Below, in pieces: positions 24,432 to 26,998 of a stretch of DNA of 64,000 bases. Each line of letters begins with the position of its first letter. Within the stretch, counting starts at the first letter, position 1. A program made the translations under genes and the position numbers. Below the pieces are notes generated by a model. The model ran no database searches, was not told where the DNA came from, and saw only the letters and a list, made by a program, of their open reading frames with translations. Origin of the DNA: Bacteroidota bacterium. GTDB lineage: Bacteria; Bacteroidota; Bacteroidia; B-17B0; Aurantibacillaceae. The stretch covers positions 124,001 through 188,000 of the forward strand of contig JAFDXR010000003.1 of the NCBI GenBank assembly GCA_018267825.1, written 5' to 3'.

Positions 24432-25235
24432 TTAATTTCTTTGACCGGATGCCTCATGTGAAGCATTGCGCTCTCGGTTTTCACGCATCATCCACAACAG
24501 GAAAACGAAAGGTGCGAGAGCCGACAGGATGTGTTTGATGGTATGGCCGCTAAATCCGGATAAATGGCGGTAAATTTCCCAGTCGAATGCTTCCGAAATT
24601 TTTGCAAGCAGGTATATACCGGCAATTATCCAGAAATAAATCCGGTTCCTGTCGTTCCCCTGAAACATAAGCAGGATGAGCGGAATAAGGATCATGGGTA
24701 AAAACTGAATAAGCATATAAAAACGCAGATCGCCCACTCCCCTGCTCTCTGTCATGTACCAGTACATAACGGATGCCAGCCCCATGAAAATAAAAGGCCA
24801 TAGCACATAATGCCCCAGGTGCCTGCTCATGTAGCGACCAATGACCACCGAAGTAAAAGCCATAAAGGCGATGGTCATGGGCAAGCGATCCCAAACCAGG
24901 CGTTGATTTGAAGGTGCATGATGATAGTATGCAGAGCCAATTGCCGTGAGAAAAATGCCCAAAAAGAAGACGAGGCTGCTGCGAGAGAAAACGGAATCAT
25001 ACCCTGCACTTCTCCATTTCATGAGTGTATAAATTATGCCTGCTAAACCAACCGCAAGGAACAGTAAATTGGATGCAACGTTCCAAAAGTTCGGAATCCC
25101 GCAAACAGCCCTCTGGTCGGCAAAGTTGTGGAATACCGGATCCTGTGGCACCGGCGCATGTAACAAAACAACAACAATTGCTGACAGTATCACAGCACCC
25201 AGGATACCATACCTTACTATTGGCTTAACAGTCAT
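24432..25235 (-). CDS. Ceramidase-like (CREST superfamily) membrane hydrolase
   Basis: A 267-aa protein with about seven membrane helices. The alkaline ceramidase pattern is present: a first motif SAYYHHAPSN with a following DRLPM, and a last motif SGHTIKH. In characterised alkaline ceramidases the Ser/His of the first motif, an Asp and the two His of HxxxH hold the catalytic zinc; all have counterparts here. N-terminal QRAVCGIPNFWNVASNLLF also fits the family. Bacteroidota commonly make sphingolipids, so a ceramide substrate is plausible, but related bacterial proteins may act on other amides. It begins 15 bases after the YiaA-like gene, so both are probably driven by the promoter at 25706. 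Confidence 0.82.
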   Translation of the reverse strand: MTVKPIVRYGILGAVILSAIVVVLLHAPVPQDPVFHNFADQRAVCGIPNFWNVASNLLFLAVGLAGIIYTLMKWRSAGYDSVFSRSSLVFFLGIFLTAIGSAYYHHAPSNQRLVWDRLPMTIAFMAFTSVVIGRYMSRHLGHYVLWPFIFMGLASVMYWYMTESRGVGDLRFYMLIQFLPMILIPLILLMFQGNDRNRIYFWIIAGIYLLAKISEAFDWEIYRHLSGFSGHTIKHILSALAPFVFLLWMMRENRERNASHEASGQRN

Positions 25236-25250
25236 GTGTATGTCCTCCGT

Positions 25251-25685
25251 TTAGAATGTTGCCGGTTCATCCGGCATTTTTGTATGATGCCTGCGTGAAG
25301 CCTGACCATCGCGGATATTTTTCTGAACAGCCACTGCCGCAAAAAGACTGAGTGTAAACGACATGCCATAGAAACCTTTTTCGCTCCGGAGCAGTGTGGC
25401 ATTCCATAAGCCAATAACAAGGAGCAGAACAGATAAAATGGTGCAGAACCAGGCGATGCCATAATAGATGCCCGTTACAGGCACACCTTCGATCTGATCG
25501 CGAACCGCTTTCTGAAGTGATACGGCCGAGAAAAGCCCGAACATCAGGACTGTAAAATAATACCCTTTTTCATTGAGCTCCATCTCTGCATTCCATAAGC
25601 CTACATTGTATGCTATGGCGCCGGTAAAAAGAGCTACCCATGAGGCCGCAATAAAAGCGGGGGATGGTTTCTGTGTCATATTCAT
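25251..25685 (-). CDS. YiaA/YiaB family inner-membrane protein
   Basis: A 144-aa protein with two copies of the YiaAB two-helix unit: [20 protein letters not shown] with [20 protein letters not shown], then [16 protein letters not shown] with [21 protein letters not shown]. coli YiaA has the same two-unit plan and nearly the same length. The longer reading frame from 25742 would add 19 residues and overlap the upstream dyad, so I chose ATG at 25685 (MNMTQKP); ATG at 25679 is also possible. The function of the family is unknown. It is the first gene of a unit with the ceramidase-like gene, downstream of a Crp/Fnr regulator. Confidence 0.85.
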
Positions 25686-25705: not shown

Positions 25706-25713
25706 CAAATGTA
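25706..25713 (-). promoter_or_regulatory. -7 element of the yiaA/ceramidase unit
   Basis: The minus strand reads TACATTTG, an exact TAnnTTTG match, 20 bases before the chosen start codon. There is no TTG at -33; instead the region upstream carries the dyad at 25734-25751. A weak -33 with an upstream dyad is typical of activator-dependent promoters. Confidence 0.55.
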
Positions 25714-25733
25714 GAAGGGGCAAAAGGGAAGAA

Positions 25734-25751
25734 TTTTGACAATAGTCAAAA
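25734..25751. promoter_or_regulatory. Crp/Fnr-type operator (TTTTGAC-N4-GTCAAAA)
   Basis: A perfect dyad TTTTGAC AATA GTCAAAA. The core TTGAC-N4-GTCAA differs from the Fnr site TTGAT-N4-ATCAA by one base per half. Its centre is about 41 bases upstream of the start site predicted from the -7 element, the class II activator position. The gene directly upstream encodes a Crp/Fnr regulator whose recognition helix has the Fnr-like E..SR pattern. Confidence 0.65.
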
Positions 25752-25772: not shown

Positions 25773-26333
25773 TCACAGTTCAGCACGGATACGGCTCAAT
25801 GTTTCCTGTGTAATACCCAGGTAGGCCGCTATCTGGCCCAGTGAGGCACTCTGCATCAATGCGGGCCTGGATTCAATGAGGTTGTGATATCGTTCTTTAG
25901 CGGTTTTGAAACGGATGTTCAACAGGCGTTCTTCCAGCTTCATGTAATAGGCTTCGGTAATAACACGCCCGATGCGTTCTGTTTCGGGGAAATTACGATA
26001 CAATGTTTTTAAAGCTTCGAAGGAGATAACGGTTAATACGGTTTGCTCGATGGCCTGTATGCTCTCGAAAGAAGGGTGGCCGCCGATGAATGCATAAAAA
26101 CAGGTTGCAAATTCTCCTTCCTGTGCAAACCAGTTGGTAATTTCTTTTTCTTCCTGGAAATAGTAACCGCGTAATGTACCCGATTCTACAAAGAACAGGT
26201 TATGGCTTCGTTCGCCTGTTTTTGTGAGAATATGATTTTTAGGAACTGTAATTTCTTTTGAAATGCGTTTGATCTCTGACTCCAGTTCAGGCGAAAGGGC
26301 AATAAGTGATGATATGTAGGAGAGCATTTTCAT
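25773..26333 (-). CDS. Crp/Fnr family transcriptional regulator
   Basis: A 186-aa regulator. Residues about 15-125 form a cyclic-nucleotide-binding-like beta barrel (VPKNHILTKTGERSHNLFFVESGTLRG). A dimerisation helix follows, then a C-terminal helix-turn-helix (SLGQIAAYLGITQETLSRIR). Only one Cys (in ATCFYAF) is present and no N-terminal Cys cluster, so it is not an oxygen-sensing Fe-S Fnr. The canonical cAMP-binding RxS motif is also not evident, leaving the ligand open. The recognition helix QETLSRIR matches Fnr at the E, S and R base-contacting positions. It ends right at the end of the coding frame with a minimal tail. The downstream dyad at 25734 is its likely target. It is divergent from the 182-aa barrel gene. 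Confidence 0.9.
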   Translation of the reverse strand: MKMLSYISSLIALSPELESEIKRISKEITVPKNHILTKTGERSHNLFFVESGTLRGYYFQEEKEITNWFAQEGEFATCFYAFIGGHPSFESIQAIEQTVLTVISFEALKTLYRNFPETERIGRVITEAYYMKLEERLLNIRFKTAKERYHNLIESRPALMQSASLGQIAAYLGITQETLSRIRAEL

Positions 26334-26449
26334 TTACAGGAACGAAGTTAAACAATCGTGCCGGCTCCGCAATAGAGCCAGCCGTGCGCCTGTGAAAAAA
26401 GCTCCTGAATCATGAACCCAAAAAAGAATAATATTCACTAAGTTTGCCT

Positions 26450-26998
26450 ATGGTGCGGAAGCTGCTGAGCATGGTGTTTTTCGTTATTGTTTTGGGTGTC
26501 TCTGCCCAAACGGAAGATTATGTGCAAAAACCGCCACGCGATTACTCCCGGAATCCTGCCAGGAACGCAGCGTTTATTGAGCTTGGCGGCAATGCCGGTT
26601 TGTATTCGCTGAATTTTGACCGGATCCTTTTCTACCGTGATCGTTTCAAATCTTCAATACGTGCCGGGTTTGCCCCACTGCCACACGGGCATTACTTTGA
26701 GCAGGCCTATGTACTGGAATCCTGTTTTATTTTATTTAAAAATCCACATCATCTCGAACTAGGTGTGGGTGCTACCGTTCAACGCCGCTACAATGAAAAG
26801 CCCGACAACAGTGGTGATTACGCCTGGGAAAATATCTGGTATAGTGTGTGGCGATGCGGCTACCGTTACCAGCCCCGGGATGAAGGATTTTTTTTCAGGG
26901 CCGGGTTAACACCTGTGTTCATGAGTCACGATGCGCTTGGTTCGCATCCCGATTACTTTCAGATGTGGGCCGGGTTGTCTGTTGGCGCCAGCTTCTGA
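26450..26998 (+). CDS. Small exported barrel-like protein, unknown function
   Basis: A 182-aa protein with signal peptide MVRKLLSMVFFVIVLGVSAQ. The mature part alternates short amphipathic strands rich in aromatic residues and ends in WAGLSVGASF, with a terminal Phe, which suggests a small outer-membrane beta barrel. I do not recognise the family. A TTG at 26444 in the same frame would add only two residues, and ATG at 26450 gives the better signal peptide. It is divergent from the Crp/Fnr gene and its stop lies two bases from the stop of the convergent radical SAM gene. Confidence 0.7.
   Translation: MVRKLLSMVFFVIVLGVSAQTEDYVQKPPRDYSRNPARNAAFIELGGNAGLYSLNFDRILFYRDRFKSSIRAGFAPLPHGHYFEQAYVLESCFILFKNPHHLELGVGATVQRRYNEKPDNSGDYAWENIWYSVWRCGYRYQPRDEGFFFRAGLTPVFMSHDALGSHPDYFQMWAGLSVGASF

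Follow-up and report, generated by a model that had tools for sequence, protein, structure and literature searches.

A putative class II Crp/Fnr circuit at the yiaA gene of Bacteroidota, with a fixed 22-nucleotide spacing between regulator site and promoter

Introduction

At class II promoters of Escherichia coli, the sites of Fnr and Crp are centred at -41.5. The recognition helix of Fnr, VETISR, reads the half-site TTGAT, and the Fnr/FixK family consists of readers of TTGAT-N4-ATCAA. A winged helix-turn-helix is usual but not universal in the Crp/Fnr family, and its members can also repress. Genes of this family are numerous in many Bacteroidota, with up to about 30 matches per genome. In the open literature we found no paper on the sites or the promoter geometry of Bacteroidota Crp/Fnr regulators, nor any relevant work on YiaA or on Bacteroidetes Fnr sites. 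The -7 element of promoters in this phylum, TAnnTTTG, was placed at -12 to -5 by genome-wide start mapping in Flavobacterium psychrophilum (PMC9723704).

Here we describe a locus within a 64,000-nucleotide stretch of a Bacteroidota genome (the window) in which a small Crp/Fnr-type regulator gene precedes yiaA and a ceramidase-like gene. The locus resembles the E. coli class II Crp/Fnr promoters in the predicted -41.5 centre of the site, in the missing upstream promoter element and in the TTGAY-N4-RTCAA core of the site. It differs from them by its Bacteroidota TAnnTTTG box and by a small, wingless regulator that appears dedicated to its neighbour. With a probability of about 0.8, we interpret the locus as one of dedicated class II activation, in which the adjacent regulator would act at the dyad to activate yiaA, accompanied in this lineage by the ceramidase-like gene.

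Results

The elements of the locus follow one another on the minus strand in the order regulator gene (26333-25773), dyad (25751-25734), -7 box (25713-25706), yiaA (ATG at 25685, stop at 25251) and ceramidase-like gene (25235-24432). The original prediction had proposed a perfect Fnr-type dyad, TTTTGAC-N4-GTCAAAA, and such a dyad (TTTTGACAATAGTCAAAA) is present at 25734-25751, a site to which no strand is assigned, with arms of 7 bp and zero mismatches. A spacer of 22 nt (25714-25735, minus strand) separates its TTGAC-N4-GTCAA core (25736-25749) from the sequence TACATTTG (25713-25706, minus strand), an exact TAnnTTTG element. No TTTG was found 17-23 nt upstream of this -7 box, and the expectation of an exact -7 element lacking a -33 element was therefore confirmed for the yiaA promoter of the window. 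The centre of the dyad, at 25742.5, lies 29.5 nt upstream of the first T of TAnnTTTG, and because this T was placed at -12 by start mapping (PMC9723704), the dyad is predicted to be centred at -41.5, in a register taken from Flavobacteriaceae, another family. This position would correspond to the geometry of a class II activator. A centre about 41 bases upstream of the start had been anticipated, and it stands; the predicted transcription start is 25701 on the minus strand, one nucleotide away from the 25702 given before.

The window contains eight perfect dyads with 7-bp arms and a 4-nt spacer, therefore the palindrome alone is weak evidence and could be the product of chance. However, the sequence, place and spacing of the site are conserved across many genera (see below), which has already refuted this explanation and leaves it a negligible probability. 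A scan of the 4.8 Mb genome for TTGAC-N4-GTCAA, suggested together with the original prediction, located the pattern at only two places, this site being one of them, and this is no more than was obtained with a reversed-pattern control. When two mismatches were allowed, 27 places were found versus 16 in the control, mostly background, and a global Fnr-like regulon was discarded. The combination of both elements was more discriminating: TAnnTTTG preceded at 18-26 nt by TTGAY-N4-RTCAA was found twice in the genome and never with the control, both times with exactly 22 nt.

The YiaA protein was used as a query to collect 80 loci across Bacteroidota. At 37 of these loci, the gene immediately upstream of yiaA is of the Crp/Fnr family, and 36 of the 37 include the dyad, defined as TTGAC-N4-GTCAA with at most two changes, which are mostly C to T and lead to TTGAY. 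The only one without it (L096) has a distant paralog (28%) as its Crp/Fnr protein. Promoters were considered scorable when a TTGA-N6-TCAA dyad and a full TAnnTTTG were both present at yiaA. The distance between them was exactly 22 nt in all 39 scorable promoters; the spacing had been preset to 22 in this search, and a separate survey of the yiaA loci in which it was left free gave no other spacing beside a -7 box. None of the 39 has a TTTG 17-23 nt before TAnnTTTG, as seen in the window. In 28 non-redundant promoters the dyad and the -7 box stand out, and the spacer, invariant in length, is poorly conserved in sequence. The inner position of the site shows a preference for C/G, and in some relatives TTGAT-N4-ATCAA takes the place of the site. 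Since the arrangement is spread over Niabella, Chitinophaga, Segetibacter, Pontibacter and Cyclobacteriaceae, it must be old. An alternative dyad at Aquimarina yiaA loci, TGTATC-N4-GATACA, was dropped because it is located inside a longer yiaA reading frame. Taken at the sequence level, yiaA appears to be the conserved target of the circuit.

Four yiaA genes (L036, L040, L084 and L104) have the site and the spacing without a neighbouring regulator. Each of these four genomes encodes an unlinked relative of the regulator, 45-64% identical, and the best regulator matches in 16 sampled site-free genomes reach 40% or less. The assignment is less certain in one case (G231, L206), because the relative belongs to a sister branch and sits before a different gene with a dyad of its own. 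The yiaA-associated regulators are all contained in two clades with strong support in the tree (99/92 and 100/98); the 100/98 clade also includes a few members with the site before other genes, the L206 relative being one of them, and the tree does not show the two clades to be sisters. The persistence of the dyad at yiaA when no regulator gene adjoins it indicates that the site is separable from the 3' end of that gene. This observation bears on a rival reading, in which the dyad ends the regulator gene as an intrinsic terminator or forms a hairpin in its RNA. In favour of this reading are the location of the dyad about 21 nt after the stop codon and its folding into a stem-loop of 7 bp (-6.2 kcal/mol, z -2.05). 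Nevertheless, the hairpin is weak and its stem A/U-rich, it is not followed by a U-run in the direction in which the regulator is transcribed, and a terminator would account neither for the four unlinked cases nor for the fixed distance to the -7 box. This reading was rejected as very improbable.

The regulator (25773-26333, minus strand) is a protein of 186 amino acids with a cNMP-binding domain, whose beta-roll matches PF00027 (1.7e-9), and a helix-turn-helix that ends at the recognition helix, QETLSRIR. Its AF2 model (pLDDT 92) has the Crp/Fnr-family fold, with 3dn7, Crp and Fnr as the top structure matches. The C-terminus reads ...GITQETLSRIRAEL, and neither the sequence nor the model shows a wing (beta hairpin) after the recognition helix; the same is true of its relatives and of the short homologue 3dn7. 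Consequently, we file the protein under a wingless branch of the Crp/Fnr family. The cyclic-nucleotide-binding regulatory protein of Cytophaga hutchinsonii (PDB 3dn7) is its closest solved relative by both sequence (3.5e-14) and fold, and has a similarly short C-terminus (194 amino acids). With the Fnr/FixK family the regulator shares the E-T-x-S-R helix and the fold (Foldseek TM of about 0.86 to A. fischeri Fnr). It differs from that family in the missing wing, in the inner C/G preferred in its site and in the N-terminus, where neither the extension nor the cysteines of the Fnr Fe-S cluster were found. In the alignment, the only basis for this comparison, the cAMP-contacting R-S of Crp (...QERSAWVRA) is replaced (...PSFESIQAI). 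Residue 43 is Ser in the window regulator and Cys in 45 of 46 aligned circuit regulators and in 3dn7, so that a sensor or structural cysteine has possibly been lost here; any sensing by Cys43 would have no counterpart in the window protein. No TTGAY-N4-RTCAA through which the regulator gene could be autoregulated is present in the 250 nt that precede it (the best sequence has 4 mismatches). A separate reading frame at 26444-26998 encodes a protein of 184 amino acids that is divergent from the regulator and has no Pfam family.

The relation between recognition helix and site was studied with 65 Crp/Fnr genes picked by protein similarity alone, and the site was sought within 400 nt downstream. 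TTGAY-N4-RTCAA was present after 29 of 39 genes with ET(L/F)SR helices versus 0 of 26 with other helices (Fisher 3e-10, kinship ignored), the site-free helix types including VSLSR, QALSR and EFLSK. The 400 nt after the remaining ten ETLSR genes contain no dyad. This association agrees with the VETISR/TTGAT pairing of Fnr and points to Fnr-type DNA specificity, with an E..SR helix paired with TTGAY-N4-RTCAA. An Fnr-type core matched to an adjacent regulator with an ETLSR helix, as originally proposed, is thus upheld by conservation over many genomes.

The genome contains nine Crp/Fnr genes, and a paralog, for example one of global Fnr or FixK type, could be the true binder, the neighbour being a bystander or a sharer of the site. 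Winged Fnr-like proteins with an ETLSR helix do exist and probably read the same core. One of them is encoded next to the only other promoter of this genome with dyad, 22 nt and TAnnTTTG (contig C31:113346-113389; L114:1501-1544), which is located between the Fnr-like gene and a PAS histidine kinase gene, and the protein continues beyond its recognition helix (SAETLSRNLGKL...). In relatives, CcoI-like and other genes also carry the same site. On the other hand, the yiaA site accompanies members of this regulator group, whether or not they are linked to it, and is missing where there are paralogs alone, and each of the two promoters of the genome lies beside its own ETLSR regulator, which makes binding by a paralog unlikely. 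The adjacent regulator therefore remains the preferred binder. It is predicted to be dedicated, mostly to one promoter, rather than a global Fnr, because a single promoter in the genome can be assigned to it, the site usually adjoins its gene, and the site stays with yiaA when the regulator moves. A site and a kinase similar to those of the C31 arrangement were also observed at L143.

The assignment of the yiaA product (25251-25685, minus strand), a membrane protein, to the YiaA family is certain: it has two YiaAB domains (PF05360, 3.8e-41; NF008482 over its cut-off). The ceramidase-like gene (24432-25235, minus strand) begins 15 nt after yiaA and is probably co-transcribed with it, judging from this layout. 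It encodes a CREST hydrolase with seven transmembrane segments, although its PF05875 score, 36.2, is just above the cut-off of 32.5. The CREST residues S101, H105, D116, H231 and H235, which form the S-x3-H, D and H-x3-H motifs in a 7-TM fold, are invariant in 12 relatives. Human ACER3 (6g7o) is the first structure match of the AF2 model (pLDDT 92), with a modest TM of 0.62 and 17% identity, and shares S-x3-H, a D 11 residues on, and H-x3-H; the spacing of its residues S77/H81/D92/H217/H221 (PMC9436119) is the same as in the window hydrolase. A sequence search against the PDB returned only weak, irrelevant RND matches, hence ACER3 is linked to this protein by Pfam, motif and fold.

Among the 80 loci, the ceramidase-like gene is found beside yiaA only in the lineage of the window. 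The two genes had been presented together as targets; yiaA emerges as the conserved one, and the ceramidase-like gene as a lineage-specific operon partner. In one relative (L188; G219:C96), the regulator and site directly precede the ceramidase-like gene with no yiaA between them, an arrangement that speaks for this gene as a genuine target. It had also been described as sphingolipid-related. The enzyme carries the CREST catalytic residues, but a search of the window genome for serine palmitoyltransferase gave nothing above the curated cut-off, the best match being a glycine C-acetyltransferase. A role in sphingolipids thus stays putative, and the enzyme may act on another N-acyl lipid. At L253:1444-2703, this genome encodes a PLP enzyme of the AOS family that reaches none of the curated cut-offs (SPT, Kbl and BioF), a candidate aminolipid synthase.

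The 22-nt spacing is not confined to yiaA. In a census of 87 genomes of the order of the window, TTGAY-N4-RTCAA followed after 12-32 nt by TAnnTTTG gave 148 matches, of which 65 have a spacing of 22 nt, 10 of 21 and 13 of 23, every other spacing having about 3.3; because of kinship among the genomes, P values are no more than indicative. Approximately 20 of these 65 matches belong to yiaA or to the ceramidase-like gene, so that the spacing rule is not limited to a single gene family. Downstream of the others are genes for ClC-like channels and for a CcoI-like ATPase, KamA-like genes and unknown genes (names assigned by eye from sequence), and many of these non-yiaA sites have a Crp/Fnr gene just upstream. 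In 21 Cytophagales/Chitinophagales genomes, the spacing was 22 in 19 of 19 yiaA sites and in 8 of 22 other matches. The strict pattern searched class-wide in 149 genomes was too strict to be useful (3 matches, one of them a further 22-nt case). Two other arrangements were observed. Pontibacter has a second, likewise conserved circuit with an ETLSR regulator, a TTGATGCCCGTCAA-type dyad, 22 nt, TACCTTTG and a DinB-like gene (L255:1-3501; G269:C9, G271:C1, G266:C14), and a family of small lipoprotein-like genes (SES..DE.AGLNGGFE..NWLVYT) is preceded by close relatives of the regulator, or by the site itself, at L128, L159, L166, L161 and L168.

These results also bear on the direction of the effect. 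The regulator could bind the dyad and repress yiaA, or only block read-through from its own gene, given that Crp/Fnr proteins are able to repress and that both genes lie in tandem on the same strand. However, the 39 promoters combine a -41.5 centre with a -7 box and lack a -33 box, as an activator-dependent promoter requires, and the 22-nt spacing recurs at many unrelated genes. From this geometry, we infer activation and consider repression quite unlikely.

Discussion

Our analysis leads us to predict, with good confidence, that the circuit at yiaA is real, conserved and of the class II Crp/Fnr type, with a mechanism of a known kind. In the proposed mechanism, a dimer of the 186-amino acid regulator would occupy the dyad that separates its gene from yiaA. 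From -41.5, the bound regulator would recruit sigma-A RNA polymerase to a promoter that has a -7 box only. Transcription of yiaA would be activated in this way and, in the lineage of the window, that of the ceramidase-like gene which follows.

Of greater interest are the broader layout and the helix-site rule. We consider it reasonably likely that a common design extends throughout Bacteroidota, in which a small, often wingless Crp/Fnr gene is followed by TTGAY-N4-RTCAA, exactly 22 nt, a lone TAnnTTTG and the target gene. Such units would be private class II switches of one regulator and one operon, with the ETLSR helix predicting the site, and the yiaA circuit would be among the most widespread. 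If this is true, the targets of many orphan Crp/Fnr regulators could be read from sequence by means of the helix-to-site rule and the 22-nt spacing, and class II activation at -41.5 would work on TAnnTTTG promoters too. The circuit would also assign a specific regulator to yiaA and to a bacterial CREST hydrolase, through which the conditions that call for these proteins could be approached.
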